Positions 3,398 to 29,423 of a stretch of 64,000 nt of DNA are shown here, in pieces. The position numbers were made by a program, and so were the translations under genes. Under the pieces are notes generated by a model. The model was not told the DNA's origin. It worked only from the letters and a program-made list of their open reading frames with translations, and did not search any database. Within the stretch, counting starts at the first letter, position 1. Each line of letters opens with the position of its first letter. Origin of the DNA: Paludibacteraceae bacterium (GTDB lineage: Bacteria; Bacteroidota; Bacteroidia; Bacteroidales; Paludibacteraceae); NCBI GenBank assembly GCA_024401435.1, contig JAKSLB010000001.1, forward strand, positions 62,001 through 126,000, written 5' to 3'.

Positions 3398-5284
3398 ATG
3401 GATGAGAATAGAAAAGCAATGCAGTTTATCCTGATTTTATTTTTGACAGGAATGTTTTTGATGATTACTGGTCAATGGATAATACACAACAATTTAACAG
3501 ACCATATTCCTGTTATGTCCTTTTTGAAATTCAAATCCGAATGGTTCATAAGACTATTGTATGCTATAATGGTTATATTAACCGCATATCTTACACCTGG
3601 CAAAAGGAATCAATGGGTGGCAGAAAACATCAACTATATGTTTGTTCTTATGTTCATACTAGCAGCAGGTTTTCTCATTGGATTCAGTGGAATAAAATAT
3701 TACGATCTTTTCTTTTTCCCTATTGTTTTTGCAGCTTATACAATAGTGGCATTTATCGTGATTTCAAACATAACCGATCATCGTGTAAAAGCAGACAAAA
3801 GTATTTTTGGAGTCTCAAATGAAAAGAACATTGAACGTCCTGATTTTTATTTCACCTTTGAAACAGATCAAGGAACTTTAAAAGTACACAAACCTCAACA
3901 AAATATCTATATTGACGGAGGTCCAGGGTCGGGGAAAAGTGCTAGTTGGATAAAAGGTATTATCACACAATGTGCAGAACGAAATTATGCAGGTTTTATC
4001 TATGATTGGGAAGGTGATCCCACAAAAAAAGGGTCACCCATTTTAACAAAGATTGCCTATGGCTCAATTGAGCACTATAAAAAGGCAGGAAAAAAGACGC
4101 CACAATTTGCATTTGTTAATTTTACGGATATGTTTAGAACACATCGTGTTAATGTGTTATCAGAAAAATATATCACACCTGAAATTGCCTCATTATTTAT
4201 AGACAATCTTGTCACAACATTACTCAAAAATTTAGAGCCCACATGGAAAGAAAAAATGGATTTTTGGGCGAATAATGCTGTTATATACGTTAAATCCATA
4301 GCGCTTAAATGTTATAAAGAGAGACATTTAGGAATCAATACGCTTCCTCATCTAATAACTATTTGTCTACATAACTATGACGAAGTTTTGGCTTGGCTTG
4401 AAGAAGACAAGGAAATAAGGATGAACATACAATCCATACTTACGCCATGGAGAGCAGGAGGAAATTCTGCAGGACAATTATCTGGAGTTATCTCTTCTGT
4501 CCAAACGCCAATGACCAAAATGAACAACAAATATTTATTTTGGGTTATGTCACCTAGCAAAGAAGAAGAATTAGATCTAGACATCACCAATAAAAATCAC
4601 CCAACACTTCTTTGCGTAGGAAATGCGCCAACACTAAAAGAAGCAATCACACCAGCTGTGTCATGCATTGCTTCTGTATTACTATCCCAAATGAACAATC
4701 CGGACAAACAAAACTCGGTATTCCTTGTAGACGAATTCCCTACCGTTTTATTACAAGGCATAGACGTGTTTGTCGGTACAGCAAGGAAGCATTTCGTTTC
4801 AACAATATTAGCACTTCAAGATTACAATCAAGCGAAAAGAGACTATGGAGAAAACTCCGCAAAGATTTTAAAAGCAAATTGCAGTACCCAAGCATTTGGT
4901 ATGACAGGAAATGATGAAACTGCCAACGCTGTAGAAAAACTCTTTGGTGAGCAAAAAGAATTAAACGAATCCTTCTCGCAACAAGATACAGGAGGAAATT
5001 CAAGATCCGAAACATTACAAAAAGACAAAGTTCTAAAAAGTAGGGATATTGCAGGACAATCTGCAGGACACTTCGTAGGTAAAATTGCAGATGGCAAACC
5101 ACCATTTTTCAACCTACAATTCAAACAATGTGTTTATTATTCCGAAGAGATACCTCCATTCTCAAAAAAGGTAAATACTGGTGATGAAATAAGAGACAAA
5201 GAAATAATGGAAACCATCATTGATAAAAATTACGAAAAAATTATTGATGATATAGAAAAATTATTAAGTCCCTACAAAATATAA
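3398..5284 (+). CDS. Type IV coupling protein (VirD4/TraG/MobC family)
   Basis: This 628-aa protein matches type IV coupling ATPases, which recruit relaxase-DNA or protein substrates to a type IV secretion channel at the inner membrane. Residues 1-130 contain about four membrane helices. A Walker A motif (GGPGSGKS) follows near residue 175, and a Walker B-like segment (VFLVDEFPT) near 445. The length fits the MobC/TraG family of Bacteroides elements. The gene is convergent with the tra operon, which ends 151 bp away, so it has its own promoter. A coupling protein implies a substrate, yet no relaxase is encoded in the window. The family call is firm; whether the substrate is DNA is inference. 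Confidence 0.88.
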   Translation: MDENRKAMQFILILFLTGMFLMITGQWIIHNNLTDHIPVMSFLKFKSEWFIRLLYAIMVILTAYLTPGKRNQWVAENINYMFVLMFILAAGFLIGFSGIKYYDLFFFPIVFAAYTIVAFIVISNITDHRVKADKSIFGVSNEKNIERPDFYFTFETDQGTLKVHKPQQNIYIDGGPGSGKSASWIKGIITQCAERNYAGFIYDWEGDPTKKGSPILTKIAYGSIEHYKKAGKKTPQFAFVNFTDMFRTHRVNVLSEKYITPEIASLFIDNLVTTLLKNLEPTWKEKMDFWANNAVIYVKSIALKCYKERHLGINTLPHLITICLHNYDEVLAWLEEDKEIRMNIQSILTPWRAGGNSAGQLSGVISSVQTPMTKMNNKYLFWVMSPSKEEELDLDITNKNHPTLLCVGNAPTLKEAITPAVSCIASVLLSQMNNPDKQNSVFLVDEFPTVLLQGIDVFVGTARKHFVSTILALQDYNQAKRDYGENSAKILKANCSTQAFGMTGNDETANAVEKLFGEQKELNESFSQQDTGGNSRSETLQKDKVLKSRDIAGQSAGHFVGKIADGKPPFFNLQFKQCVYYSEEIPPFSKKVNTGDEIRDKEIMETIIDKNYEKIIDDIEKLLSPYKI

Positions 5285-5355
5285 CACGCTCTAATTCTTG
5301 ACAACTCGTGAAGGTGGGGAATATGACTTGTAGAAAAAGTTGGAGATTATAACAA

Positions 5356-5401
5356 GGTCAAGTAAATTATAGAACCTGATTATCCATAATATTACTTGAC
5401 C
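5356..5401. terminator. Inverted repeat between convergent coupling-protein and traN genes
   Basis: GGTCAAGTAA at the left pairs exactly with TTACTTGACC at the right, and pairing continues inward through AT-rich bases with one bulge. It sits between two convergent gene ends. It lacks a clear U-run on either side, so a bidirectional terminator is only the simplest reading. A protein-binding palindrome is also possible. Confidence 0.4.
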
Positions 5402-5435
5402 AAATAAAATTATTGTATCTTTACTAAACCAATAA

Positions 5436-6518
5436 TTATTTCACTGATATAGCAGACATTATATCTTTATTTTTCAAATTAAAATAAAGATGTCTACCAC
5501 CATTTTTTTCGAATATTTCAATTCGAAAATATTTGTCATCAGGAATTGTAAACTTATTGAATACGAAAGGAATTGTTTGGGTGGAATTTCCATTTATGGT
5601 TGTAAAAGTATATTTAGAATCGACAAAAAGAGGAGGTGTATCAATATATTGTTGTAACTCATTTTTAGACACCTTTTTATCCATAAAGAAAAATTTCGTG
5701 AAATCAGTATCGTAATTTATAGTACTAGCATTATTCAACGTAAGAATAAAAATCATATACTTCTCCGTAACAAAAATATTGTTTATCGAAAGTGTTATTT
5801 TATTTTTTATAACACCAAGATCATATATAACTCTTTTTTCCTCCAATGTCTTTTTACAAAGATCCTGTAAATACTGATTATTATCATCTATTTTAGCAGA
5901 ATTTTTGTTCGAATCCAACTCATATATATAATGTTGTGATACACCATATGTAATAATAACATTATATTCATTCCCCTTATTATCTACAGCAAAAACATTT
6001 GATTCTTCGAAGCCAAATTGTTCTGTAGATATTTCAAGAATATTTTTAGCAGTAGATTGTTTTACAGAAAGAGACGACTCATTACCTTGTTGAAAATAGA
6101 CAACTTCCGAAGGAAATATAACAAATGCCTTATTACTTTTATTTAAGACAACATGATAATCATCCTTTCCATTACCAGCAGGATAAAATGCAGAAGGAGA
6201 GGAAGAAGAAAGTGTATCATATTTTATTTGATATGAATACATCTGTCCAGATTTATCAATAATAACCAGATTCGTTTCTTCTTCAAAATTCTCTTCCATA
6301 GCAATTACTTTCACTATATTGTTCTTTTCTTCAACAATAGAAGATTCAATATATTCAGATCCAACAGAAGTTTGTTCTACTGGATATGGAAGAACAATAT
6401 GAATAGCCTTATCAAAATTTATTTTGATGGATGCCGTATATACTTCCCTTGCATTCAAGAAAAAAGAACACAGCAAGGAAAAGAATAATATTATTATTTT
6501 TTTACAATATAAAACCAT
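5436..6518 (-). CDS. traN: TraN-like conjugative transfer protein (DUF4138)
   Basis: The 360-aa product has an N-terminal signal peptide (hydrophobic residues 8-22, cleavage near NAREVY) followed by beta-rich sequence resembling TraN of Bacteroides conjugative transposons. These start with a segment that binds or mimics a VirB9-like fold at the outer membrane. Features supporting this are the early KINFDKAIHIVLPYPV strand pair and repeated beta hairpins. It is the last gene of the tra operon, the usual place of traN after traM. Its start overlaps the preceding small gene by 17 bp. It likely forms part of the periplasmic and outer-membrane part of the T4SS. Confidence in the family is high from both position and sequence. 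Confidence 0.8.
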   Translation of the reverse strand: MVLYCKKIIILFFSLLCSFFLNAREVYTASIKINFDKAIHIVLPYPVEQTSVGSEYIESSIVEEKNNIVKVIAMEENFEEETNLVIIDKSGQMYSYQIKYDTLSSSSPSAFYPAGNGKDDYHVVLNKSNKAFVIFPSEVVYFQQGNESSLSVKQSTAKNILEISTEQFGFEESNVFAVDNKGNEYNVIITYGVSQHYIYELDSNKNSAKIDDNNQYLQDLCKKTLEEKRVIYDLGVIKNKITLSINNIFVTEKYMIFILTLNNASTINYDTDFTKFFFMDKKVSKNELQQYIDTPPLFVDSKYTFTTINGNSTQTIPFVFNKFTIPDDKYFRIEIFEKNGGRHLYFNLKNKDIMSAISVK

Positions 6519-6681
6519 TTACAATATTGATAACAAGCATTCCAATAATAGATAAAACGAATAAATAAACTGCCTTGATTTCCTTTAATTCTTTACCATT
6601 TTTTCTCTCTTGAAGAATTTTGTAAATAGAGAAAATCAGCAAAACTGCAACAATTAGCGATAAAATTAAAACAATCATCAT
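6502..6681 (-). CDS. Small two-helix membrane protein between traM and traN
   Basis: This 59-aa frame starts with an ATG that overlaps the traM stop (ATGATGA arrangement) and ends inside the start of traN, so it is translationally coupled on both sides. It begins MMIVLILSLIVAVLLIF, then has a charged loop (QERKNGKELKEIK) and a second hydrophobic helix. The product would be an inner-membrane protein. In CTnDOT-like operons the small membrane gene traL sits between traK and traM; here that space is only about 50 bp, and this gene lies one position later. I do not recognise its family. The tight overlaps argue that it is real. Confidence 0.65.
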   Translation of the reverse strand: MMIVLILSLIVAVLLIFSIYKILQERKNGKELKEIKAVYLFVLSIIGMLVINIVNGFIL

Positions 6682-7781
6682 TTTATGAAAATTTTATAAT
6701 TAGCTTTTAATGTAACTTTAACTTCTTCCACCTTACTTTTGGATATGGATTTAATAACTGAAGTAGTACCCTTAATAACATTTCCAACTGGATTAGAGGA
6801 AGGTGATGGGATATCTACATTATCAATTGCACTACTTGAGGTCTGTTTAGCTATCTGATTCTTGACATTATCTGGAAGGTTAAGCCCCTGAATAGCATCA
6901 TTATCATAGATAGTATAATTAACTTTTTCAATGTGATTTCCATACTTAATAGACGTAACGCTGATGGTCATTCTATCTTTTGAAATTTGAGCCACTCCAT
7001 AAAAAATGGTATTTTCGGGTATAATTGAATTATCAGACAATTTAATTGGCTCTAATAAACGCATCATGACAGTTGACCCAGCAGAAACAGTTTGAGTAGA
7101 ATGGATACATGCCTGAATCAAATTTTTATTAGATGAGACTTGTTTCGATGTAGATCTTTTTCTTGTACGAGACTTTGAATCTCCTGTTATCTTACCCTCC
7201 TCCTCTTCATCATATTCAGAAGAAGAAGGTCCTTCCCATGTTCCATTTAGGATTTTATCTCTTTCTATTTTTGCCAAATCACTTTCTCTTTTCTTTTTGG
7301 CCACAATGGCATCATACAAAGAATCTGCCACGCTCCTTGTTGGTTGTGATTCTTCATTGCTAACATATTTCTTTTGTCCACTTTTTTTAGTAGATGTTTT
7401 AGGTTGTTTCTTTAAAACAATTTTCTCATATAGTTCCTCTTCATTAAGCCATTGATTTTCAGAAGAATCAATATCTTGTTTAACAACAGGCTGTTCTTCA
7501 TCATCTGACGTTAAATCATCAAAGAATTTAAGATCGGAATAATCCGTATTGTTTTTTTCATATTCCTTTCTTTTTTTCTCATATCGCTCTTGGGTATAGG
7601 CATCAATTTTAGACATAGAGGAATCAGCCTCTGAGTCTGGTATGATTATAGCTGATGGATCATCAGCATCTACAGATTTCGAATTGGAAGAAAAAAAGAC
7701 AAAAGCAAACAAACACGCAAGACCAATCGGAATTGCGAATAATATTAGTTTCTTACTATCAATATCTTTAAAATCCTTCAT
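6678..7781 (-). CDS. traM: TraM-like conjugative transfer protein (VirB10-type)
   Basis: The 367-aa product has a short cytoplasmic start, one membrane helix (residues 12-29), a long charged and Ser/Lys/Glu-rich linker, and a folded C-terminal beta domain from about residue 225. This is the layout of TraM of Bacteroides elements and of VirB10-type proteins that span the periplasm and link the inner and outer membrane parts of the T4SS. The C-terminal sequence around GSTVMMRLLEPI and NTIFYGVAQI fits the TraM C-terminal domain. An upstream in-frame TTG at 7787 could add two residues, but the ATG at 7781 is the better start. It follows traK with a gap of about 50 bp. Confidence 0.83.
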   Translation of the reverse strand: MKDFKDIDSKKLILFAIPIGLACLFAFVFFSSNSKSVDADDPSAIIIPDSEADSSMSKIDAYTQERYEKKRKEYEKNNTDYSDLKFFDDLTSDDEEQPVVKQDIDSSENQWLNEEELYEKIVLKKQPKTSTKKSGQKKYVSNEESQPTRSVADSLYDAIVAKKKRESDLAKIERDKILNGTWEGPSSSEYDEEEEGKITGDSKSRTRKRSTSKQVSSNKNLIQACIHSTQTVSAGSTVMMRLLEPIKLSDNSIIPENTIFYGVAQISKDRMTISVTSIKYGNHIEKVNYTIYDNDAIQGLNLPDNVKNQIAKQTSSSAIDNVDIPSPSSNPVGNVIKGTTSVIKSISKSKVEEVKVTLKANYKIFIK

Positions 7782-7834
7782 TTTCAATATAATTTATGTG
7801 ATTTTGATAATTATTCCATTCGTACATAATAGGG

Positions 7835-8440
7835 TTATTCTTCATTTTTAACCTGTGTTATATCCCACTTGTCAATTTTCACCCCATGAACATTTTCGCG
7901 ACAACGTGCCACATCATACAAGGTAAAATTAATTTTAAGTGTTCTACTCACAGATCCCTTTGCACGATAACCTGTTTGTGTTACATAAGCAGTTCCACTC
8001 ACTGGCAATGTATTCATATCGATACTTATATCATCAACCTTAGCATTATAATGAATATTTTTTTGTTTTAAGATATTCAACATATTAAGGTCATTATATT
8101 GATTCAACAATTCTTTTCCTGATTCTCCTATCAAATTAATAGCAGTATTGATATTATCCTCATAATTATTTTCATCAAATGCATACCAAAGTTGAATAAA
8201 TGTCTTAACATGATTTTCATATTCATAGACTCTCATATAAGATGCCTGAACAGATTGTGATTCGTATGCATTTCCTTTCGTGTCAATCACCAGAACATTT
8301 TGTTGAAGTTCATTAACTTGATTAATAAGTCTATTAATAACAAAAGCGAAAGCCACACTAACAATAAAAATACTCACTAATGTCATAATGGTGTTTCTTT
8401 TCACCATTTTATTTAAATTATCTAAGTTATGTAATTCCAT
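7835..8440 (-). CDS. traK: TraK-like conjugative transfer protein (VirB8-type)
   Basis: The 201-aa product begins with about 17 cytoplasmic residues, then one membrane helix (residues 18-36), then a periplasmic domain of mixed alpha/beta sequence. This is the topology of VirB8-type assembly factors. Sequence features such as the early LDNLNKMVKRN stretch and the VRVYEYENHVKTFIQLWYAF-like region match TraK of Bacteroides conjugative transposons. Its ATG shares a base with the traJ stop codon (TAATG), so the two are translationally coupled. VirB8-type proteins nucleate the inner-membrane complex and contact most other subunits. Confidence 0.88.
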   Translation of the reverse strand: MELHNLDNLNKMVKRNTIMTLVSIFIVSVAFAFVINRLINQVNELQQNVLVIDTKGNAYESQSVQASYMRVYEYENHVKTFIQLWYAFDENNYEDNINTAINLIGESGKELLNQYNDLNMLNILKQKNIHYNAKVDDISIDMNTLPVSGTAYVTQTGYRAKGSVSRTLKINFTLYDVARCRENVHGVKIDKWDITQVKNEE

Positions 8441-9456
8441 TATTTCTGTGAATTATCATTTTTTTTAATAATATCATTACTTGATTGAGCAGAATTTGCA
8501 GCAGCAGATGCTGACATAGAAGCACCTCCAATAACAAGTCCTGCAGCTGCGGTAGTTGCACCAAAAATACTTGAGAAAATTTGACCAGCATCTCCTTGAC
8601 CAACAATTTTTGAAGTTAACCAGAATGCAGCGATATAACAAATTAAAATGACCATATCCATAATCATTGTTTCATTAGACTGAGGTGTACTACCAGATAA
8701 GAACATAGCAAGAACTGAATCAAGAATATTATCAAGAATATTTAATGTAGTAATTGTCAAGAGAGAATTCAACAATGTGGAAAACCAAGCTTCTATTTGT
8801 TTTTTAAAACATGGAAGAATTGCAAAAGCAAACGCCAAAGGTCCCAATATAACAAGGATTTTACTTACCACAACAACCACTCCCTTGATAATAGCACCCA
8901 CCAACATTGTAAGAAACTCAACTACCAGATGAAGAGTCATTGCTACAGGTGCATTCCAATAGTTTGCAATTTCTTTCCAAGCATCTGTTATAGATTCTTT
9001 AATTTGCGAAAAAGTGCTTTTTTCTTCTTGTGATATGTTGTTTTGCTCCTCTAAAGTTTCTATCTGTTTTACAGTCTCCATATGACTTTTTGCATTCGTG
9101 GTCAACGTCTGTAAATTCTTAGCATACGATGGCAAATTAGCTGGTTCTGTTGCTGCATTGATAACTTCAACCGTTCCAACTATCACCTGCGAAATAGGCA
9201 AATATAGCGTGATCATGATAATGATTGCCAAACAGCGACCTATTTCCCTATAATCAGGGAATTCTCCTTTACTACCACCCACAAAAGAGAAAAATCCATT
9301 TTTTAAATAGTTATAAGCCATGTTACATACAAACAATAATGCTGCCAACGACATAGCCACTATGGAAATTTGACTTATCAAAGTGACTGTAGCACTATCA
9401 ATAATTGACAAATTACCCAACCAAACCTTTTCTGTAATATTACTAAGCAAAACCAT
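8440..9456 (-). CDS. traJ: TraJ-like polytopic membrane protein (VirB6-type)
   Basis: The 338-aa product has an N-terminal helix region, a hydrophobic pair (about 20-45 and 80-105), a coiled hydrophilic loop rich in E and Q, and a run of four to five membrane helices from about 175 to 300. The C-terminus is Gly/Ala/Ser-rich. This is the arrangement of TraJ of Bacteroides elements, the VirB6-like channel component of the inner membrane. It lies between traI-like and traK as in CTnDOT. Start is an ATG at 9456, three bases from the preceding stop. Confidence 0.87.
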   Translation of the reverse strand: MVLLSNITEKVWLGNLSIIDSATVTLISQISIVAMSLAALLFVCNMAYNYLKNGFFSFVGGSKGEFPDYREIGRCLAIIIMITLYLPISQVIVGTVEVINAATEPANLPSYAKNLQTLTTNAKSHMETVKQIETLEEQNNISQEEKSTFSQIKESITDAWKEIANYWNAPVAMTLHLVVEFLTMLVGAIIKGVVVVVSKILVILGPLAFAFAILPCFKKQIEAWFSTLLNSLLTITTLNILDNILDSVLAMFLSGSTPQSNETMIMDMVILICYIAAFWLTSKIVGQGDAGQIFSSIFGATTAAAGLVIGGASMSASAAANSAQSSNDIIKKNDNSQK

Positions 9457-9458
9457 TT

Positions 9459-10031
9459 TTAATATCTTTTAGTACCAATAAAAGAAGGACAAGTATTATA
9501 ATTTTGTTCAATGTATTTGTCTTTAACCTGATTTACATTTTTATTATCCAACCATTCCTTTAAATTTCTCATTTTCTCAACAGTCAAACCAAGACTAGTT
9601 ACAATCATATCAATAGCACTAATTCTATCAGACTCATCCATTGTGACAAGATTAGTTTGAACAATCACTTTCGAAACAATTTCTTTATCATAAGCCAAAG
9701 ACATAACAATCATTTGTAATTCCAACATTTTGAAATTAGGAACATCTCTTGAAGCTTTAATGGAGTTTGCCAACTCCGTTGAAGCCTTAACGACGTCTAC
9801 CAATAAAGTTGAAATTTGAGAAACTGTCTGCATCGTTTTTAATGCATTTGCACCCTTTTGACATTTTTCCAATTCAATTCTATATTCCTCCATTGAAGAT
9901 GTATAATCAACAATTGTATTGTTAATTAATTGAAGTGCCTCTAAGGCTGGGTTTGTTGTTGCCATTTGTGCTTTACACGTTGCAGACAACATTAAAGATG
10001 TCAATAGAAATAAAAAAAATCTTTTCCCCAT
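9459..10031 (-). CDS. TraI-like periplasmic T4SS protein
   Basis: The 190-aa product has a clear signal peptide (MGKRFFLFLLTSLMLSATCKA, cleavage before QMATT) and is otherwise helical and hydrophilic. Its place directly before traJ is that of traI (DUF4141) in Bacteroides conjugative transposons, a VirB5-like secreted subunit. The helical content with regularly spaced leucines fits that role. It is shorter than typical TraI and sequence similarity is not clear by eye, so the name rests mainly on gene order and topology. Confidence 0.6.
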   Translation of the reverse strand: MGKRFFLFLLTSLMLSATCKAQMATTNPALEALQLINNTIVDYTSSMEEYRIELEKCQKGANALKTMQTVSQISTLLVDVVKASTELANSIKASRDVPNFKMLELQMIVMSLAYDKEIVSKVIVQTNLVTMDESDRISAIDMIVTSLGLTVEKMRNLKEWLDNKNVNQVKDKYIEQNYNTCPSFIGTKRY

Positions 10032-10051
10032 CGCAATAATAATTTCGAAAT

Positions 10052-10309
10052 TTATTTAAATAATATCACTGAAAATATAACAGCCACTATCCAACCTATA
10101 AGAAGCTCTTTCCCATGAGGTTTGCCAGTAGCAAGCGACCAAACGACATAAATTAAACCAATAGCTAATATTGCACAAGCAATATATTGACCACTTTCAG
10201 TTATTGAACTACTATCAGCATCAAGATCATTTTTAAGGGTGTTTAGCCCCTGGCTGGCAAGGGTATAGCCTGATTTCCCCTTTGCAAGTAATATCTGAAG
10301 GACCATCAT
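10052..10309 (-). CDS. Second TraE-like (DUF4134-type) small membrane protein
   Basis: The 85-aa product has two hydrophobic helices. Its C-terminal half (GKELLIGWIVAVI) closely matches the TraE-like protein encoded at 13185-13469 (AKEYLIGWIIAVV). The two are paralogues in one operon. TraE/DUF4134 proteins resemble VirB2-type pilin subunits: small, with two membrane helices around a short loop. Unlike the first copy it has no clear cleavable signal peptide. The start codon overlaps the stop of the VirB4-like gene (ATGATGA). It may be a second pilin or a minor subunit. Confidence 0.72.
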   Translation of the reverse strand: MMVLQILLAKGKSGYTLASQGLNTLKNDLDADSSSITESGQYIACAILAIGLIYVVWSLATGKPHGKELLIGWIVAVIFSVILFK

Positions 10310-12867
10310 TTTTCTTCTCTTTTTTGATTTATATATTTATTAATTGCCGCATACGTACTACCTGTCTCCTTGATTAATTCTCTAATACGTACGATTGTAC
10401 TTTGACGAGAATCAAAAGCCACAGCAGCTTCTGGAGAAACTTCATTTCGGAAAATATAAGGATGTTTTCCTAGTTTACAAAAGAACTCTCTCCAATGATC
10501 TGAACGTTGCAAAGATTTTATCATTTCTATTTCCGCATCAGAAAATGACAGCATGTTTTGCAATTCTGGAAGATTATCCTGATGTTTACTATGATCCAAA
10601 ATAATTTTAGTATCTGTATTGATAAGAATTGAATCTCGAATTAATTGAGGAGCAGATTTTAAGAACATAACATTCTGAGCCGCAAGTGCTATTTCTCCCT
10701 CTTTTTTACGGAACGTTCTGTATAAATAACCAATAAACACACCAAACTTCTCATCCATAAGGAAATCTAGAGCTTCATCGATAATCAATGTTTTAGCGAT
10801 ACCTTCACGATGTTTAATTTTACCAATAACCAATTGCAAAACAATAATAACAATTAGCGGGAAATAATTCTTTTTACAAACACCTTCCATATCAAAACAA
10901 AGGAGTGTATCATTGACCACGTCAATGTTTTCTTTCGCATTTAAAAGATGTTTAAGGTCACCTGTAGTATATGGTTCCAATAAAATTTGAATTTCCTTAT
11001 AATCTATCTTCTTCTTTTCGTATTCTTCTATTTCATTTTGATATAATGTGAGGAAATCAGAATATTCAATCAATGTCGGAAATATTTTATTCTTATTTAC
11101 GTATTCGTAAAAATTCTTAATACTTCTATCAAGGAAAGCTTTTTCTGTATTATTCATCTGTTCCTTTCCTTTCCATATGTAAGAGATAATAGACGAAATG
11201 GTGTCAATATTATCATTGACACTCTCTTTGTCTTCACCCATATAAAGATAATCTCCATCTTTATTTTTATCACAAAGGAATGGATTAAAGCAAAATTCGG
11301 ATGTTTTATTTGAATCGAAATATTTACCTCCATTTAAATTAATCATGGATCGATAAGATCCACCAATATCAATTATTACAACATCTCTTTTGGCATGAAT
11401 AGATTGTAACACATAATTATTCACCAAAAATGATTTTCCACTACCAGAAGGACCAAAAACAAGTCTATTTCTATTCTCAATGTTTTTCATGTCCTTATCC
11501 CACATATCAACAAGGACAGGAGTGCCAAACCTATCCTGGAACAAGAATCCTTCTGCACTTGTCATATACATATTTTCTTTTTGTATATAACATAATGCCT
11601 GAGTGGTCGTATTTACAAAGTATCGATAGACAGAAGCTGCATTACCCGGCATACTACAAAAGAAAAGATTTGCATTTTCTTCATTTTCCGTATAACAATT
11701 AGCATGATTCATTTTAATGAATCCCTGTTTTGCCATAGAAATCTTTTTCTGTAGCATATCATAATCCGTATCAGAAACAATAACATTTAAAGAAGTCCGC
11801 GCAGTTTGATATCCATGGTGCTGTACTGTATCAATAAATGCTTGTTGTTCCTGTTGTTTAATCTTAGCAGGAGGATAAAAATTAGCGAGGAAATTCAATG
11901 AGGTCTTTTCTGTATTGATGGCAGAAACCACATTGTCATTATCCGTAATTTCTATTATAACATTTAAAATATGATCAAATGGCAATCCAAGACCTAATGG
12001 ATAAACCATTGAAGCCTTTGAACGAATGTTCTCAGGCATTTCAATATTAGAATTTAAAATCTTTCCCGTTTGTGGTGTGGAAAGATAATCTAGTTTACTA
12101 CCTTCTTCTATAAGTGTAAGAACCTGAACATATTTATTTCCAATCATTAAATTCCCATTTGTAGTTGAAATAGGATCTAACGACTCTTTTGATGCATCCT
12201 CCGTTGGCGTTGAAAATGTTTGACTCATATAGTCATACACAGCATTATTCAATGATTGCGAATGCATTTTTTTTACAGTGAAAAAGGAGATAGAAGCTAA
12301 TGCATTTTCAAAATTAATCAAAGTGGTTTCTATTTCCTTTTTCCGTTTAACAATATCTTTAAAAGGCTGTACAAATGGCACTCTAGGTTTTTTAGTTAAT
12401 GTGGTTTCTGAAGTTCTTTTATTATCTGAATTACGAAATGTAATATAGATATTTGAATAACTTTTCAATATATCTTTATTGGCACAATGCTTATAATTTG
12501 CATTAACCAAGACATTATCACTAAACTGATTATTTGTATAATTTCCTGTATAATAAAAATTTTGCTGATGAAAAACGCTCCCAGCTGGTAACATTTTAAG
12601 CAGTCCCTCTAATTGTGTATGTATTTGTTCTGCATCAGAATCCGACAAGGTAAAAACTTCTGGAAGGAATATATTATAACCTATAGTAATATCTCCATTT
12701 CCATTGACAATCATATTATCATCAATAAATTGGATAGGCATAACATCCGATAAATCCGTCGCATTTTCGCTGAGAATACTCGTTTGTTTAGACATAAATG
12801 ATATAAGTAATATTATTAAACCTATACCCAAAAATGCTACCACCAATATGACAATGATGTTACTCAT
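10306..12867 (-). CDS. traG: TraG-like conjugation ATPase (VirB4-type)
   Basis: This 853-aa protein is the VirB4-type ATPase that powers T4SS assembly and substrate movement. One N-terminal membrane helix (residues 4-24) is followed by a long N-domain, then a P-loop near residue 480 (GPSGSGKS) and a Walker B segment (TLIIDEALDF) near 700. The C-terminal part includes SLQRSDHWREFFCKLG, typical of the family. Family members run 800-900 residues, so the gene is full length. The start overlaps the end of traF by 8 bp and the stop overlaps the next gene by 4 bp. The name follows Bacteroides tra nomenclature and is unrelated to the VirD4-type 'TraG' of other plasmids. Confidence 0.93.
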   Translation of the reverse strand: MSNIIVILVVAFLGIGLIILLISFMSKQTSILSENATDLSDVMPIQFIDDNMIVNGNGDITIGYNIFLPEVFTLSDSDAEQIHTQLEGLLKMLPAGSVFHQQNFYYTGNYTNNQFSDNVLVNANYKHCANKDILKSYSNIYITFRNSDNKRTSETTLTKKPRVPFVQPFKDIVKRKKEIETTLINFENALASISFFTVKKMHSQSLNNAVYDYMSQTFSTPTEDASKESLDPISTTNGNLMIGNKYVQVLTLIEEGSKLDYLSTPQTGKILNSNIEMPENIRSKASMVYPLGLGLPFDHILNVIIEITDNDNVVSAINTEKTSLNFLANFYPPAKIKQQEQQAFIDTVQHHGYQTARTSLNVIVSDTDYDMLQKKISMAKQGFIKMNHANCYTENEENANLFFCSMPGNAASVYRYFVNTTTQALCYIQKENMYMTSAEGFLFQDRFGTPVLVDMWDKDMKNIENRNRLVFGPSGSGKSFLVNNYVLQSIHAKRDVVIIDIGGSYRSMINLNGGKYFDSNKTSEFCFNPFLCDKNKDGDYLYMGEDKESVNDNIDTISSIISYIWKGKEQMNNTEKAFLDRSIKNFYEYVNKNKIFPTLIEYSDFLTLYQNEIEEYEKKKIDYKEIQILLEPYTTGDLKHLLNAKENIDVVNDTLLCFDMEGVCKKNYFPLIVIIVLQLVIGKIKHREGIAKTLIIDEALDFLMDEKFGVFIGYLYRTFRKKEGEIALAAQNVMFLKSAPQLIRDSILINTDTKIILDHSKHQDNLPELQNMLSFSDAEIEMIKSLQRSDHWREFFCKLGKHPYIFRNEVSPEAAVAFDSRQSTIVRIRELIKETGSTYAAINKYINQKREEK

Positions 12868-13180: not shown

Positions 13181-13184
13181 TCAA

Positions 13185-13469
13185 TTAAAATCCTGTAATC
13201 ACAGCTTTTGCTATCAAACAAACAACAACTGCAATAATCCAACCAATAAGATACTCTTTCGCACGTTGTGATGATGTTGCTAATGCATAAATAACAAATA
13301 TCAAAGCAACACCTAATACTGCAGCAACAACGTATTGTGCCATTGTAACTACTGCAGAAGAAGCATCTTTTACTTGATTATTCATATCACTTACAGAACC
13401 AATCTTTAGTTGTGCATTTGCCATAGCTACAGCCATAACGGATGAACATGTTAAAAAAAATTTTTTCAT
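13185..13469 (-). CDS. traE: TraE-like pilin-type protein (DUF4134)
   Basis: The 94-aa product starts with a signal peptide (MKKFFLTCSSVMAVAMANA, cleavage before QLKIG) and then has two membrane helices joined by a short loop with SSQRAKEYL. This is the DUF4134/TraE layout of Bacteroides elements, compared with VirB2 pilins. It heads the compact part of the operon, followed by traF after 4 bp. A 343-bp gap separates it from a further TraE-like gene upstream, and I saw no strong separate promoter in that gap. Confidence 0.85.
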   Translation of the reverse strand: MKKFFLTCSSVMAVAMANAQLKIGSVSDMNNQVKDASSAVVTMAQYVVAAVLGVALIFVIYALATSSQRAKEYLIGWIIAVVVCLIAKAVITGF

Positions 13470-14064: not shown

Positions 14065-14082
14065 TCCCGTTTTTTTATTTTG

Positions 14083-14109
14083 CAAAGATAGAAAATTTTC
14101 ATTTCACAA
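14083..14109 (-). promoter_or_regulatory. Promoter of the tra operon
   Basis: Read on the - strand, TTG (14109-14107), 16 bp, then TATCTTTG (14090-14083) matches the Bacteroidetes TTG/TAnnTTTG promoter. It lies 18 bp before the ATG at 14064. Confidence 0.6.
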
Positions 14110-14170
14110 TGTATTTGTCAACCATTTTATTACTTATCAACACTCATTGTTCTGTTTTTTTTTATTCCTT

Positions 14171-14201
14171 TTGTTAAAGTCACGGATGTTTTTTATATTT
14201 G
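14171..14201 (+). promoter_or_regulatory. Promoter of the two-gene + strand unit
   Basis: TTG at 14171-14173 and TATATTTG at 14194-14201 with 20 bp between them match the Bacteroidetes promoter form. The first gene starts 25 bp later. This promoter is back-to-back with the tra promoter. Confidence 0.55.
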
Positions 14202-14226
14202 TATTATAAATTAAATACTTGATATT

Positions 14227-14784
14227 ATGATAGACTTAAAAACTGGCAAAATCGTCATCAACGAACAAAAGGGTTGGGTGCTTGAACCTGGAATGAAATG
14301 GGAAGATTTAAAAAAATCTAATATATATGTCAATGGTCCAATTCATGAAAATTATAGACTTCATCCAGAATGGCAAGGGGCATTTTTTGAGCACATAGAT
14401 ATAGATGGATTTGATATGAGTGTAGATGTTAATGTTGACACGAATGGTTATATTCATAAAATTTTCATTTATCATCCAGATGCTCACAATCAATGTCTTT
14501 CAAAAGAAGAAGCCTATAAGTTCAAAGCATTTCATGACGAGTTCATATCCCATCAAATTGGAAACCAACTTAAGGGATCTGGCGAAATATGGTTGGATTA
14601 CGACTGGGGGTCCATCACCTCTGAAATCAATTTAATGCATGATTCTATTGTTGATATTATTATAAGATTTAACACATATCCTATTCGAGTGGCAAAAGGA
14701 GAAATAAAACCTGTTACTCAAGAGGATATTGATAATTATTATAAAAAATTACAAAGTAGACTTAAATCAAATTTACAAGAATAA
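14227..14784 (+). CDS. Uncharacterised protein next to tra operon
   Basis: I do not recognise this 185-aa protein. It has no signal peptide or membrane helix, so it is probably cytoplasmic. It is acidic and aromatic-rich, with a conspicuous opening LEPGMKWEDLKKSN, a predicted mixed beta/alpha fold and a charged C-terminal helix. The size, single-domain nature and aromatic content are like small immunity-type proteins, but nothing specific supports that. It is transcribed divergently from the tra operon and is 46 bp upstream of a 518-aa gene, with which it shares a promoter and terminator. Confidence 0.65.
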   Translation: MIDLKTGKIVINEQKGWVLEPGMKWEDLKKSNIYVNGPIHENYRLHPEWQGAFFEHIDIDGFDMSVDVNVDTNGYIHKIFIYHPDAHNQCLSKEEAYKFKAFHDEFISHQIGNQLKGSGEIWLDYDWGSITSEINLMHDSIVDIIIRFNTYPIRVAKGEIKPVTQEDIDNYYKKLQSRLKSNLQE

Positions 14785-14830
14785 ATAGTTATATAAGCGA
14801 AGTGTCACATTAAAATAGAATGAACTATAT

Positions 14831-16387
14831 ATGACATATGTTTTACACCAAAAGGAGGGGAAAAAAGCTTTACTGAACGAAGTGTCTTCAAAGCAAATGG
14901 GTGACGAGCTAAAATGCAACTCATTTTTCGAGAATTCATCTCTCACCTTGTCAGAACAAGCATTTAATTGGCAAGGGATGGACGCTTATCCGTTAATGGA
15001 TAAATACGAAAATGTAAAGTTAGACAAAGGCACTCTTTTGGGATGCCTTGTAATTCCAGATGGAACAGATTCGAACGGCTATAAAAGAGGAAGTTATTAT
15101 TTCCCGATAACGGAAGAAATTCAAAAGTTACTTGACAAGCCTGATTTTACAGCCAACGAGTTATGCGAAAAACTTCAGATTAAGCCATGGAAAAATCCAT
15201 CAACCAAGGAATATGAATACAAAAATCACGTAGCCGTATTTCGAACCTCATGTGACATTGAAGTGGCAAGAGGCAATACTCTGGCCAATCCACACTATGG
15301 AGAAGGAAATTGGGAACAGATATATATTCCAACTGACAACACCCATTTTCCAGCGAATATTGAGGTCAACACAAATGTCGAGGCTAATGAGAAATCTCCA
15401 CTTCAACTTGTAGAAATGAAGACATTAGTTCGGAATAATCTCTCCGACATGGAATTCGGGCAAAAAATTGATGATAAACACGAGTATGCCTTAACTCAAA
15501 GAAACCTTTGCTGTTATCTTAAAGTAAAAGCAGATTTACTTCAAGTTGCTCAAAACAGTCAAGATCAAGCCATATCAGACAAGGCGAAAGGACTTTTACC
15601 TTTACTTGAAACACACATAGAAAAATATAACAAATTTTTTGCTTCAAATGATATAAATTTAGAGACAACCTATGATTCTTTATCCAACTATTTGAACATT
15701 AAGGTGAATTCACTTGAAGGAGAAAACACGCTATTTCTTGCCGATGAAAAAAAGGAGTCGGAAATAAAGAATTTTACGGATAATATTTTTGAAAAAGTAA
15801 ATACAGATCTTCATAAAGAAGAAAGTCAGAGACAGATTGATGTGAAAGAATTGAAAGATGCATTTGATGTTCATCAATTAAACACAAAGCATATTCAGAC
15901 AGAACAAATTGACTATACGAAATCAGTTGATTATGGCAATGTTAAGTCTGTCACAGTTGTTGCAAAAGATGGGTCTCCACAAGTTCAACCGATAAATAAG
16001 TTTTTTTCACCAGTTGATGGTTCTATGGATTTTAATCTTTCTAATGGCAAACTATCTCCTCTCGTTCAAATTGAAGGAGACGAAGCGAAATCCAAAATAC
16101 TTGCACAAGGCAAACTGCTTCTTCCTATACAAGAGCAATCCCGTCAACAGCTGATTCAAAATTTAAAAGACTCTGGTTTTAATGTCACAAATGGTTTATT
16201 GTCTCAACTTGCGGGAGGCATTAAAGATGGAAGCAATACAACTTTGAAACTTGATAAGGATCTTAATAGACTGCTAATGGTATCGCCCAATAAGAATATA
16301 ATACCATTATTTACCAAGGGTCCAAAGCAGTTAAATGTGCTGACACAATCTCTTAACACAAAAGCAGTTCCCTTTTTGAAACCATAA
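14831..16387 (+). CDS. Uncharacterised cytoplasmic protein, 518 aa
   Basis: I do not recognise this protein. It lacks a signal peptide and membrane helix. Residues 1-180 look globular, with a GCLVIPDGTD and a VARGNTLANPHYGEGNWEQI segment. The second is a Gly/Asn-rich loop reminiscent of substrate-binding loops, but no catalytic family can be named. Residues 190-370 are rich in helical, charged sequence. The C-terminal 150 residues contain repeated short segments around LSPLVQIEGDEAKSK and LLPIQEQSRQQL, somewhat like the DUF3945-type repeats of Bacteroides mobile elements; this is a weak impression. It ends just before a strong terminator. Confidence 0.65.
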   Translation: MTYVLHQKEGKKALLNEVSSKQMGDELKCNSFFENSSLTLSEQAFNWQGMDAYPLMDKYENVKLDKGTLLGCLVIPDGTDSNGYKRGSYYFPITEEIQKLLDKPDFTANELCEKLQIKPWKNPSTKEYEYKNHVAVFRTSCDIEVARGNTLANPHYGEGNWEQIYIPTDNTHFPANIEVNTNVEANEKSPLQLVEMKTLVRNNLSDMEFGQKIDDKHEYALTQRNLCCYLKVKADLLQVAQNSQDQAISDKAKGLLPLLETHIEKYNKFFASNDINLETTYDSLSNYLNIKVNSLEGENTLFLADEKKESEIKNFTDNIFEKVNTDLHKEESQRQIDVKELKDAFDVHQLNTKHIQTEQIDYTKSVDYGNVKSVTVVAKDGSPQVQPINKFFSPVDGSMDFNLSNGKLSPLVQIEGDEAKSKILAQGKLLLPIQEQSRQQLIQNLKDSGFNVTNGLLSQLAGGIKDGSNTTLKLDKDLNRLLMVSPNKNIIPLFTKGPKQLNVLTQSLNTKAVPFLKP

Positions 16388-22600: not shown

Positions 22601-25600
22601 AAGTTTGGATCTGTTCCATAAATGTATGCCATATCACCTTCTTCAACACCTATTGGTGCTGAAACGTCAGCTGAATCTATAACGACCTCTTCACAGACAA
22701 AGAATGTTTTAGCATTTGAAATTACTGACATCTTACACGTTTCATCTGTAGCAACACGTCTGTAAAGAGAATTTGCATACATATTATAACTATTGCTGTT
22801 TGGAAGATAATCTGGACCTGTTTGACCATCTATTTTTTCCCATGTCTCACCACTATCTGTTGATTTTTCCCAAGTATATGAATAAGATCCAGATCCCTTA
22901 GAAGCCGATTGCATATTTTTAATGGCCACATACGAACCATAGCATGTAACCTCATCCGTACCATCAATTTCTCCTGGCTCTATAGCATCGTAAACATCAA
23001 TGCTTACAATATTAGATAGGACACTAGGACCTGGATAACCCACACTGGAAACTTTCGCATAAAATTCTGTTGTCTCTTTTAACCCACTAATATTAATAAT
23101 CGCATCATCATCAAATTCAAAATTGAAGATGTCACCTCCTTTTTTCAAAAGAGCAAAACCTTGCATAGATTTTGTCTTATAATACCAATCGACAACATAC
23201 TCTCCTGTTCCTCCAGAAATATTTTGAATACGAACATCATATTTATCTTGTGAATTAGAACAAATTGTTTTAGGAGAAGATGTGTAGACGTAATTTATTG
23301 TTAATTTATCATACAAAGTATAAGAATACGAAATCACATCACTTTTACATCCTGCTGGATTAACAGAATAAACATTTAAGACATGTGTGCCAGCCTCATA
23401 AAAAGACTTTAGCTCTCCTGCAGTCTCATTCGGTAAAATATCTTCTGATTTATTAAAGGAGACTGGATTTCCTGACGCATTCTTTTCTGGAGTACTATAC
23501 CAAAAATACGTATTCTTCACATCTGAAGGAATAGAAAATTGTAAAGTTTCCATATCATCAGATATAACCTTATCACTTAACATTATGATATCATTCGCAG
23601 AGAAAGAACCTGAATTATTAATAGAAATTAATACATAATTAGAAGAATTCTGTTGATTGTTACACTGATCTGTCACAACACATCTAATCATTGTATTTTC
23701 AGTTATTTCATCTTTAACCCAATGAAGTATATTTTCATCACTTCCAGAAATCTTATTTGTATTAACTATTTCGCTCCATTCTGAATTACCAGTTTTTATT
23801 TCCCACTGATATGTGACATCATTAATATCACCTTCCTCTGTGTTTAACGAATTTTCAAAAACCAAATCGACAGCATCACCTTTACATACGAATATCGTCT
23901 GAGTGTGTGAACCATCTTCTTTAGTTACATATACATTATAGTTAGGAAGTGTTTTATAACCATTTACAACAATCTCATTTGACAATATACTTACCGATTT
24001 AGTTGATGCATTAGGCGAATAGGTAAGTTTACATGCATATACATAATCATTACCTGTAGCATCTGGTGTCACTTCCAAAGTAGAGGTTGTTGCTTTTGAA
24101 ATAGTTGCCCACGAAGATGAGGTTGAAAGACGTTTCATCCATTGATATGCTACTTCTTTTCCTGTCAAATCAGCATTATCATATTGAGGTAATTGCTCCA
24201 TTGTCAAAACAGTAGAAGTTGATGCACATTTAGAAATTTCGCCTTCATTCGTGATTAAGAAATCAGAGGTAAAACCTTGATTAACACGTATAGTACCACA
24301 ATACATTTTTGATTCACAAGTCTTGGCGGTTGTTAGTTCTTTAATACGCTGTACGCAATAACCTATTTCACCTGTTTTAGCCACTTCCTCCGAAATAACA
24401 AATGTATAATCAATACCACTTGTCGTTTTCGCTCTGGAATCAACCTTTTCGCCATTTAGATAAAAGAGATCCTTATCCATATTTATGTCATCATCATGTA
24501 TCGAAACTGGATAAGATGTATTACCATCAACTAAAGAGAAAACTTCGGGTTCAACAGTCAACTGATCTGACTCTATTTCAAGTGAAGGATTAACCTTTAT
24601 AAGAGAAGGAATGTATTCATAAAAATAAATCTCATTATTACAAGTATTATCTAAAACCTTCAACTTGAAATATGTATCCTGCAAAAGAGAGCCAACGCTC
24701 AAACTTCCTTGTTGACCATTAGATCCTGGTTCTTCACTATATGTTTTGTTATCCAACGATCTATACCATTGATAATTGTATTTTCCCGAACCACCTGATA
24801 TAGAAGATGGATCCAATATAAATGCAACAGATTCTCCATAACATATCGTATTCTCAGAAACCTTAAGTGCCGATTCTAATACTTTTATATTATCTTTTGT
24901 GGTAATAATCACATTTTCTGTTATCTTATCTTTACATGATTTGTGATTAGTTTCCAATGATATAGTATATTTTTCATCAGGTTTATCAAATAAAAGATTT
25001 ATGGCAGATGAACTTTCTTCTAGTATTACATTATCTTTCAACCATGTGTACTCAAGATTGTCTGATGTCTCTGATCTTTTTAAGGACACCGTATTACCTG
25101 CACATATTGTATACTCATTATCTTTAACTTTTTCAGCTCCAGTCACGACAAGATTCGTTTCTGTTAATTTTTTCTGAATAATGTTTTGATCTAAATTTTT
25201 AATCAAGGTTGGAGAAGAACATCCATCAACAACCCTTGCAGCATAAAATGGAACATAATCATCTCCAATATTGTCTGGTATCTGAATGTCAACAGAATAA
25301 GACTCAGACAATACTTCTTTGTTAGCATCAAGGAAATAATAACTCTCATCAATAGAATGATCCTTGAACAGTACCGTAACATTACCTCCTTCTAAAATAC
25401 AATCTGAATATTGTAAATCTTCAGGTTTAACGGTCAAATCTTTCCCTACAATTACATTAACCTCATTCGTTGATGTAACCTTCGAGTTACAAAATTCTCT
25501 TGATGTTGTTATAACTGCATTTTTTGTTAATTTTTGATTATTGCTTTTAACAAGTTTTGAAGATTCATCATCAGGATAATAGATGGTATATTCTATATTA

Positions 25601-28020: not shown

Positions 28021-28879
28021 TTACGTTAACCTTTAATTCTGTCCAATAAGACCAACAATTCCACTTATCCTTACATCTAGCATAAATCGTGTGTTTTCCT
28101 GGATATTGGAAAGCATGATTTATCGTTGATAATTTAGTTCCTGTAATATATGTACCATTATATGCAGCTTTACCAATAGCTATACAAGTATCAGCACCAC
28201 TTGGATTCTCAAGTTCGTATCCACCAACATTCATAACTTGACCATCAATATTGTATTCATAGAGCAAAGGAACATCTTCATCAATAGTAGTTAAAACAAT
28301 CTGTTTCGCCATTGGTTGATCAGGAATATCAACCATTTCAATTTTCACCTCCGGTTTTTCATTTCCGTGTATACAAATAAACAAATTTGCCATTCCTTCT
28401 TTACCTATTTTGTTCTTTACCTTTAAATACATACGAATTTCCGATTGATATCCATAAGAACGATGGGATTTGTGGTATTCTAAGGTACTCTCATCTAATG
28501 TTGTATTTTCTTTTATCACAAACCTATTATTATTCTTATCACAAACAATCGACAAATGTTCAGGATTAATCTCCAATGGATCTTTACCTTCTAATATATA
28601 ATATTCGTTTTCTATATAAGAACTTCCAATGCATATGATTTCATACTCAAAATCGCTGACATCTCCATATTGATCCTGGAAATCATAATAAACAGAAATC
28701 TCTTCACCCCATCCTATATTCACCACAAGATATTTCTCGTCATTTATTGTTGTATCCGTAGGAGTATGAAGTAATATAACAGGTTTTTCCCCGTATTTTT
28801 CAAAATAATCTTCGCGTGAATCACATGATACAAGTATCAATGCCATATATGCGAGTAATACAAAACAAAAATTTCTCAT
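28013..28879 (-). CDS. Lipoprotein between TraO-like and giant surface protein
   Basis: The 288-aa product has a lipoprotein signal (lipobox LVSC, mature start CDSREDY). The rest is beta-rich, with two probable Ig-like domains, the second ending in GKHTIYARCKDKWNCWSYW. It is probably anchored to the outer membrane. It sits between a TraO-like gene (4-bp gap) and the giant gene (8-bp overlap), so the three are almost surely cotranscribed. A role in anchoring or displaying the giant protein is plausible from this order, but not shown. I do not recognise the family. Confidence 0.78.
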   Translation of the reverse strand: MRNFCFVLLAYMALILVSCDSREDYFEKYGEKPVILLHTPTDTTINDEKYLVVNIGWGEEISVYYDFQDQYGDVSDFEYEIICIGSSYIENEYYILEGKDPLEINPEHLSIVCDKNNNRFVIKENTTLDESTLEYHKSHRSYGYQSEIRMYLKVKNKIGKEGMANLFICIHGNEKPEVKIEMVDIPDQPMAKQIVLTTIDEDVPLLYEYNIDGQVMNVGGYELENPSGADTCIAIGKAAYNGTYITGTKLSTINHAFQYPGKHTIYARCKDKWNCWSYWTELKVNVNE

Positions 28880-28883
28880 GTTT

Positions 28884-29423
28884 TTAAAAATTAAATCTTA
28901 ACGAAAGTGAAAAATTAGGTTTAAAATATGTGTATCCCTCTCCTGTAAGGAAATATTGTTGTGCTTTTACCGCAAGCGATATAAAATTATTGCAGAAAAA
29001 TTCTGCATTACCTCCCACATTTATTCCATAGACGATAATCGTTTTTTCCAAATCTATCACATTGGATGACCATCTATCCGCACCCACACAACCTGCTCCA
29101 CTAACATGAATATACAACCAATTTATCGGTCTCCATGCAGCAAAGTCTACTCCGATACCTAACAATGCCAAATTGTAAAAATCTGTTTTTCCAAACACTG
29201 CCCTCTCTTGATCTATTTCAACAGCGAGCGCTGTCTTTGTATTGAAATAATGATCATATGTAATACCATATGCAATCTTGTTTTTAGTCCCTTTCCCTAC
29301 TCGTAGCCCTATTTGATTACTACCCTTTACGTGTCTCAAACCAAATTTTTCGACATCCTGCGAATACGCATTTACCGAAAACAAGAAGAAGAACACAACA
29401 ATTGTTTTTAAAATCTTAACCAT
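28884..29423 (-). CDS. TraO-like outer-membrane protein
   Basis: The 179-aa product has a signal peptide (cleavage after NAYS, before QDVEKFG) and amphipathic beta strands ending in a C-terminal aromatic residue (SLSLRFNF), as expected for a small outer-membrane barrel. The layout recalls TraO of Bacteroides conjugative transposons: an early G-QIGLRVG strand, an LALLGIGVDF strand, a VSGAG loop, and a final LSLRF strand. TraO is an outer-membrane part of the conjugation apparatus. In CTnDOT it follows traN; here it heads a separate operon 15 kb away, upstream of a lipoprotein and a giant surface protein. The family match was judged by eye. Confidence 0.6.
   Translation of the reverse strand: MVKILKTIVVFFFLFSVNAYSQDVEKFGLRHVKGSNQIGLRVGKGTKNKIAYGITYDHYFNTKTALAVEIDQERAVFGKTDFYNLALLGIGVDFAAWRPINWLYIHVSGAGCVGADRWSSNVIDLEKTIIVYGINVGGNAEFFCNNFISLAVKAQQYFLTGEGYTYFKPNFSLSLRFNF

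Follow-up and report, generated by a model that had tools for sequence, protein, structure and literature searches.

The window, the stretch of DNA analysed here, is a 64 kb segment of a 242-kb contig (G000:C1) from a Bacteroidales genome of 3.8 Mb in 204 contigs. It carries the gene of a coupling protein (T4CP) and a nine-gene tra operon of a type IV secretion system (T4SS), then two genes termed p185 and p518 after products of 185 and 518 amino acids (aa), and then the genes of a cassette: BARREL, a 179-aa TraO homologue, LIPO, a 288-aa lipoprotein, and GIANT, a protein of 3792 aa. The original prediction had proposed this gene order, a type IX secretion system (T9SS) sorting domain in GIANT and a link between the T4SS and the TraO-giant operon. 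The order is confirmed by open reading frame coordinates and Pfam matches, every reading frame of the locus being present in the window (Table 1). The link is supported by a survey of relatives, and a function for the locus, discussed below, is plausible on sequence grounds. The discussion draws on computed gene order, TraO homology, T9SS tails, T4SS co-occurrence, NADase-domain homology, toxin/immunity-like pairing and T4CP association. In the labels used, G is a genome, C a contig and L a mapped stretch; G000 is the window's own genome.

BARREL and its partner genes

Taken singly, the window BARREL scores 22.2 bits against the TraO model PF10626, which is under the cut-off of 25, and the match is confined to the last 49 aa. 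For the family, a profile (A1) was built from 24 of the 27 BARREL places found in relatives; both G034 copies and that of G009, hidden in gene calling by an opposing reading frame, were left out. Compared by hhalign with a profile (A2) of the 12 canonical TraOs that adjoin TraN in relatives, it gave a probability of 98.2% (E 4e-14, 147 columns). The evidence from the single sequence is weak and that from the family strong, and by profile comparison the 179-aa protein is a divergent TraO, as had been suggested.

In scans of single proteins, PF10626 was matched by all 24 aligned BARREL members at E ≤ 0.5 (best 3.2e-10), and the general OMP_b-brl model by 14 of the 24. Across the 150 related genomes of the main survey, PF10626 matched 30 places at E ≤ 0.01: the 12 canonical TraOs, all of which adjoin TraN, 17 cassette TraOs, five of them over the cut-off, and one other place. 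There was no match in 14 control genomes. PF10626 matches are almost confined to canonical and cassette TraOs, and therefore the model does not respond to just any barrel; with this distribution, the candidate assignment of BARREL as a generic OmpA-like barrel is disfavoured. In the reverse direction, the A1 profile run over 393 genomes of the order retrieved canonical TraOs as well as new cassettes. A search of the PDB with BARREL gave weak OmpG matches only (best E 0.001).

Cassette TraOs resemble the TraO of Bacteroides conjugative transposons in belonging to the same PF10626 family by profile and in having TraN as a partner in T4SS operons. They differ in their association with a lipoprotein and giant T9SS protein and in often being detached from the tra operon. 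They also separate in a tree of 43 proteins, where 26 cassette TraOs stand apart from 17 conjugative-type TraOs (SH-aLRT 99). In the window, BARREL sits in its own operon 22 kb from traN, and traN is not followed by a traO in the tra operon. TraN of a T4SS operon has BARREL directly behind it in relatives G020, G022 and G054.

The BARREL and LIPO genes are separated by 4 bp and the LIPO and GIANT genes overlap by 8 bp, and therefore a three-gene operon is plausible. In the distant LIPO of G179 a PKD_4 match is just above cut-off, and weaker PKD/Y_Y_Y matches are present in that of G096; against the PDB, LIPO gave only weak immunoglobulin (Ig)- or cytokine-receptor-like matches (best E 0.006). 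The predicted T9SS sorting domain of GIANT is borne out by PF18962, and a sorting tail was detected at E ≤ 0.05 in 16 of 22 giant-family tails. These 22 (alignment A9) exclude the fragments of frame-broken giants G004:C58 and G014:C56 and giants cut at stretch or contig ends. SprA, the T9SS gene searched, is present in the window's genome (SprA_N, E 6e-155) and in all 16 genomes of its genus in the sample. GIANT is presumably an adhesin.

The tra operon runs from 13469 to 5436 on the minus strand. VirB4, further Tra core proteins and a T4CP, which are among the hallmarks of a conjugative T4SS, are all present in the window; its TraN we take to be VirB9-like and its TraM VirB10-like. The small TraE-, TraF-, TraI- and TraK-like genes of the window have no Pfam match over any cut-off.

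Table 1. Positions of the genes and promoter-like matches of the locus in the window
Feature	Coordinates	Strand	Evidence
T4CP, VirD4-type, 628 aa	3398..5284	+	PF12696 (TraG-D_C) 58 bits, PF02534 56 bits
TraN (DUF4138), 360 aa, final tra operon gene	5436..6518	-	PF13595 177 bits
TraM	6678..7787	-	PF12508 (Transposon_TraM) 132 bits
TraK-like by position, 201 aa	7835..8440	-	phmmer homologues at the equivalent place in other T4SS operons; no Pfam match over cut-off
TraJ/VirB6-like	8440..9456	-	PF04610 (TrbL/TraJ) 28.6 bits, cut-off 25.9
190-aa gene, TraI position	9459..10031	-	operon position; G021:C51 homologue E 2e-13; no Pfam support
85-aa small gene, TraE/DUF4134-like	10052..10309	-	DUF4134 E 0.04 only
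VirB4 ATPase (TraG of Bacteroides elements)	10306..12867	-	PF19044 (P-loop_TraG/VirB4) 250 bits
TraF/VirB3-like, 106 aa	12860..13180	-	position; DUF4133 E 0.02 and VirB3 E 0.08, both below cut-off
TraE/VirB2-like, 94 aa, first gene of the operon	13185..13469	-	T4SS_pilin E 0.0025 and DUF4134 E 0.048, both below cut-off
Promoter-like match, Bacteroidetes-type -33/-7, 25 bp before p185	14170..14201	+	only suggestive
p185, candidate immunity gene	14227..14784	+	directly upstream of 25/27 p518 genes
p518, candidate T4SS effector	14831..16387	+	N-terminal TNT-type NADase-like domain; C-terminal part of ~330 aa, unknown fold
GIANT, T9SS cargo, 3792 aa	16642..28020	-	PF18962 (Por_Secre_tail) 34.1 bits, cut-off 27; one Ig_7 (PF19081) 33.2 bits
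LIPO, lipoprotein, 288 aa	28013..28879	-	lipobox Cys19 invariant in 26 aligned homologues
BARREL, divergent TraO, 179 aa	28884..29423	-	hhalign and PF10626 family matches
Promoter-like match upstream of the three-gene operon, Bacteroidetes-type	29674..29707	-	number of matches at chance level

The promoter-like matches in Table 1 follow the -33/-7 motif that we assume for Bacteroidetes. The one before p185 is only suggestive because the window has six such matches and five are expected by chance. Adjoining the three-gene operon is a transposase gene of the PDDEXK_2 family (30389-31297, minus strand), a sign of local mobility. Two other large surface proteins are encoded nearby on the minus strand. 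One, of 2857 aa, adjoins the T4CP gene (1-2969, continuing into L071) and is helix-repeat-like with a T9SS-like tail by eye. The other is a second giant of 3216 aa (41616-51266) with an Ig_7 match of 21 bits, under cut-off, and no T9SS tail match at E ≤ 0.1.

Distribution of the cassette and T4SS lineages

BARREL is found at 27 places in 24 of the 150 genomes, and LIPO is likewise found in 24. A LIPO homologue is in the same run at all 27 BARREL places (in G096 by profile), in some runs after the giant. Large proteins of about 900-3600 aa, giant-family-like or with a T9SS-like tail, are also in the same run except in G013, where the cassette is at a contig end and a giant adjoins the T4SS on a different contig, and in G012:C160, where a giant lies upstream of the T4SS and none downstream. 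VirB4 is present in 30 genomes; 21 of these have BARREL and the other nine all have canonical TraO, a complementarity of 30 in 30 (Fisher p 1e-15, kinship uncorrected). By hand count, BARREL is within 30 kb of VirB4 in nine of the 21 genomes that have both (binomial p 7e-11, kinship uncorrected). Related genomes are not independent, and kinship inflates all p values given here. TraN homologues are present in 35 of the 150 genomes.

The set of TraO, lipoprotein and giant beside tra genes thus recurs in relatives, which is the check that the original prediction had proposed, and in G179 the set forms an unbroken run with the T4SS genes. The converse possibility, that the giant operon occurs widely without tra genes, is mostly not what was found: BARREL is without VirB4 in three of the 24 genomes, to which G050, described further below, may be added. 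The three are G003, whose assembly is 88% complete, and G062 and G081, both with a TraN homologue in the BARREL run.

The cassette is not limited to the genus of the window. BARREL is found within T4SS operons of two other genera and another family. In G179, which belongs to this other family, one run on one strand reads VirB4-TraJ-TraK-TraN-TraM-311aa-TraO-giant(1180 aa)-LIPO, with the TraM/TraN order as mapped, and the giant has a Por_Secre_tail match of 53 bits plus PKD and Ig domains. G096, of a third family, has the cassette, a T4SS and a T4CP on a single 62-kb contig, and in G417, of a fourth, the cassette is on a 15-kb contig. Two BARRELs each are present in G000, G012 and G034; of these, G000 and G012 carry two genes for VirB4 as well, and in G009 a single BARREL goes with two VirB4 matches. 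In the wider survey of 393 genomes, neighbourhoods were mapped in ten of the 20 matching genomes (G000, G021, G096, G179, G254, G277, G345, G364, G417 and G429). The named relatives with BARREL are 16 metagenome-assembled genomes with Paludibacteraceae or Bacteroidales in their titles; gut samples of yak, buffalo, goat, sheep and horse are the source of several.

Several of these neighbourhoods have further genes of note. The G179 cassette is followed by another adhesin-like pair (L223:9314-13286), a coiled-coil-like protein of 527 aa and a YadA-head/Peptidase_S74 protein of 741 aa. In G096:C1, at ~38361-44822 (L074/L233), a 2153-aa protein is encoded between the cassette and the T4CP, and over its last 545 aa it is similar to salivary gland surface protein 1 (8fjp, E 1.4e-6), which we take to be an Rhs-like protein. 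The 2153-aa protein might be a second kind of toxin accompanying such a T4SS. In genus g20, genes of a type VI secretion system (T6SS) precede a TraN/LIPO/TraO/giant cassette, at L078:9993-15000 into L050 (G034:C22) and in G081:C27 (L062/L061). Those of G034 include TssD/Hcp (PDB 9qwl, E 3e-63), VgrG (8gra, E 3e-103) and a 1.5-kaa protein that is PAAR/effector-like by eye. This contact module may serve T6SSs as well.

The T4SS of the window is close to that of G021:C51. Its VirB4 is 59% identical to the one on that contig and 24-31% to other matches, and its T4CP is 56% identical over nearly the full length. In the VirB4 tree, which has long branches, the window, G021:C51 and G179 group together, the remaining T4SSs of the window's genus are distant, and T4SSs with a cassette do not form a single clade. 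A further T4SS (C2, beside YidC) and a further cassette (C144) of G000 are of the type seen in its nearest relatives. For these reasons the window locus appears to have been imported, with T4CP, T4SS, p185/p518 and cassette arriving as one set. On G021:C51 there is a relaxase of family PF03432; with the likeness of the T4CP on that contig to that of the window, the ancestor of the window T4SS was probably conjugative. The 242-kb contig of the window has no relaxase of PF03432 or PF01076, the two families searched, and the proposal that GIANT acts in DNA transfer is accordingly not supported for the window. Elsewhere in G000, PF03432 is found on contig C134 only and PF01076 is absent from the genome. 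Within the genus, PF03432 is absent from nine of 14 T4SS-bearing genomes and PF01076 from all 15 genomes tested.

Eleven of the 16 genus genomes have a T4CP (PF12696), a count that includes G014, where it is on the relaxase contig. A lone T4CP of 886-978 aa is also seen at one conserved chromosomal site in eight genomes (L157-L159, L161-L165). In the scanned example, that of L157, the N-terminus is of the YWFCY type, and the gene has BamA/UppS on one side and aromatic-lyase/FabG/LolA-like genes on the other. TraN of G009 is directly followed by a portion of this lone-T4CP block.

The p518 and p185 genes

The two genes at 14227-16387, left as unknown in the original prediction, resemble a toxin gene paired with an immunity gene, judging by the 6XTD match and by their pairing in 25 of 27 cases. 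An N-terminal p518 profile (A7) matched 6xtd_A in the PDB with E 3.8e-9, the sole match up to E 10. 6XTD is the C-terminal domain of the Serratia T6SS effector Rhs1, a TNT-type NADase with an immunity protein (PMC10539506). Residue numbers were matched from alignment and spacing with those given for Rhs1 (PMC10539506). Gln1354, Tyr1359, Asp1363 and Gln1408 of the Serratia NADase correspond to Q48, Y53, D57 and Q116 of p518, kept in 13 of 13 aligned members, and the essential Gln1452 to Q163, kept in 12 of 13 and present in the window. The two other essential positions vary among the members: that of Phe1386 (seven F, six Y) and that of Arg1418 (seven R, six K). p518 is thus like the TNT-type NADases (Serratia Rhs1 6XTD; TNT) in a homologous domain and most catalytic residues. 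It differs in that the domain is the C-terminal part of an Rhs protein in Serratia and N-terminal in p518, a stand-alone protein of 480-520 aa.

No TNT family is among the Pfam matches of the 13 members at E ≤ 0.5, and neither p185 nor p518 has a Pfam or NCBIfam match over cut-off. Comparison of p185 and of the C-terminal part of p518 with the PDB gave nothing usable, and no signal peptide was seen in p185 by eye. Alignments A3, A6 and A7 comprise 13 of the 27 p518 genes and A4 comprises 12 p185 genes; the remaining genes were scored by profile only. Modular effectors were sought with a profile of the p518 C-terminal part (A6), which retrieved only proteins with the same N-terminal domain and no fusions to other toxins.

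The 27 p518 genes are in ten of the 16 genus genomes, and none is found in the other 134 genomes. The two without p185 upstream are at most about 700 bp from a contig end. In 19 of the 27 cases p518 is within 4.4 kb of T4SS core genes or the giant cassette; for this count gene positions were entered by hand, and the chance fraction, taken as 60 kb in 3.3 Mb, is an estimate. p518 is present in ten of the 11 genus genomes with a PF12696 T4CP and in none of the five without (Fisher p 0.0014, kinship uncorrected). G000 otherwise groups with p518-less genomes, and its locus is therefore a separate case of T4CP with p518.

Possible roles of the locus and known systems

The explanation we prefer, to which we give about an even chance, is that the TraO-lipoprotein-giant operon is the outer-membrane and cell-contact module of certain Bacteroidales T4SSs, spanning more than one VirB4 lineage, and that the T4SS of the window is probably a toxin injector. 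The T9SS would export GIANT and anchor it at the surface, where it would hold a neighbouring cell. The TraO barrel, helped by LIPO, would dock the adhesin or an exit pore to the outer-membrane ring of the T4SS (TraN/TraM). On contact, the T4CP would recruit p518 and hand it to the channel; the target cell would lose its NAD to the N-terminal TNT-type domain, and p185 would protect the producer cell. Adhesion, docking, recruitment by the T4CP, translocation, toxicity and immunity are steps that we infer. A more specific form, which we rate as somewhat less likely than not, is a hybrid weapon, not known to have been described, in which TraO is tied to the T9SS-displayed giant and T9SS grip and T4SS injection act in series to deliver the NADase effector, the grip module being swapped between conjugative and toxin-delivering T4SSs. 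The module seems to serve conjugative elements too, because G012:C160 and G034:C25 have a relaxase and a T4CP on the contig of the cassette, and it may be cargo-neutral.

A number of observations weigh against the contact-module and injector proposal. With respect to BARREL, 12 of the 17 family members matched by PF10626 are under the cut-off, and ten of the 27 BARREL places were not picked up by the genome scan at E ≤ 0.01. LIPO and a giant are present in G050, where neither BARREL nor VirB4 is matched. In 12 of the 21 genomes having both, cassette and VirB4 are on separate contigs, and other giant surface proteins flank the window locus, so that one adjacency alone would mean little. With respect to the toxin, the window p518 has Tyr for Phe1386 and Lys for Arg1418, eight of the 27 p518 genes have neither T4SS nor giant genes next to them, and the modular pattern of known T4SS effectors was missing in the searches with the p518 C-terminal part. 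G011 has p518, a T4CP and TraN (at a contig end) and no VirB4 or BARREL match. Seven genomes (G002, G004, G006, G013, G020, G022 and G054) have T4SS and cassette, and neither p518 nor a PF12696 T4CP. Finally, relaxase and T4CP are on the cassette contig in the two cases named above, and on the VirB4 contig in G014 and G051.

These last cases bear on a serious, though less likely, alternative, that the locus is a conjugative DNA-transfer system or its relic, with GIANT stabilizing mating pairs and p518/p185 as passenger cargo. G012:C160 holds a T4SS, LIPO, TraO, a giant C-terminus, a topoisomerase-like protein (by eye), a T4CP and a relaxase, and G034:C25 a relaxase, T4CP, VirB4 and the cassette; the likeness of the window VirB4 and T4CP to those of relaxase-bearing G021:C51 points the same way. 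However, the relaxase families searched are absent from the window contig, and PF03432 is absent from most T4SS-bearing genomes of the genus. In addition, the T4SS loci of G000:C2, G002 and G007 are near YidC, CPSase or fumarase genes, and the seven T4SS and cassette genomes named above have no PF12696 T4CP. The same seven genomes, together with TraN, TraO, LIPO and giant in G062 and G081 where VirB4 is not matched, would fit a T4SS core that works without T4CP or relaxase in DNA uptake or the assembly of a surface structure built by GIANT and TraO. This leaves the p518 association and the T4CP-bearing genomes, the window included, unexplained, and we regard it as improbable.

Perhaps p518 is a real toxin that is delivered by a T6SS or is part of an internal toxin-antitoxin module. 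This we consider unlikely. The 6XTD structure is a T6SS Rhs effector domain (PMC10539506), and in G034 of genus g20 the cassette adjoins TssD and VgrG genes; yet p518 tracks the T4CP and is beside T4SS or giant genes in most cases. The least probable account is that a T4SS, an unrelated operon of outer-membrane protein, lipoprotein and adhesin, and a free-standing toxin-antitoxin pair have gathered by coincidence in variable regions. The 2857- and 3216-aa surface proteins, the transposase next to the operon and the cassettes on separate contigs from VirB4 would be in keeping with it, but the TraO identity of BARREL, the VirB4/TraO complementarity and the joint runs in separate genera and families already disfavour it.

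Known antibacterial T4SSs offer a comparison for the injector proposal. Toxins are recruited through VirD4 and a C-terminal domain, and each has an immunity protein (PMC6759196, PMC10989847). The window locus is similar to the X-T4SS of Xanthomonas and Stenotrophomonas in its T4SS and T4CP, in a candidate toxin that lacks a signal peptide and has an extra C-terminal part, and in an adjacent immunity-like gene. It differs in phylum and T4SS subtype, in having one toxin type and in the T9SS surface protein that belongs to the set. Moreover, no XVIPCD-like C-terminal domain shared across different toxins was found in the searches with the p518 C-terminal part.

Large surface adhesins encoded with a T4SS have a precedent in PrgB, the aggregation substance of enterococcal pCF10, which stabilizes mating pairs in enterococci. 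PrgB is Gram-positive and cell-wall-anchored, whereas GIANT belongs to a Gram-negative bacterium, is T9SS-tailed and shares a plausible operon with an outer-membrane component of the T4SS. SprB and other giant T9SS adhesins are several thousand residues long, with Ig-like domains and PorP/SprF-type partners. GIANT is like them as a giant T9SS surface protein with Ig-like domains and differs in being encoded with TraO, not with PorP/SprF-type partners. The known contact weapon of Bacteroidota is the T6SS. Among the best literature matches by title and abstract opening, mostly open-access, none concerned a T4SS TraO joined to a T9SS protein and none an antibacterial T4SS in Bacteroidota. A recent T4SS review presents surface adhesins as the substitute of Gram-positive systems for pili, and 'Bacteroid' occurs nowhere in its main text (PMC12857230).

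If the proposed roles are correct, the locus would represent a Gram-negative T4SS with a dedicated giant adhesin, would provide a function for TraO, and would be a possible antibacterial T4SS in Bacteroidota. The model predicts docking between TraO and the giant and binding of the effector by the T4CP. The cassette would then be a marker for finding such systems in gut metagenomes.

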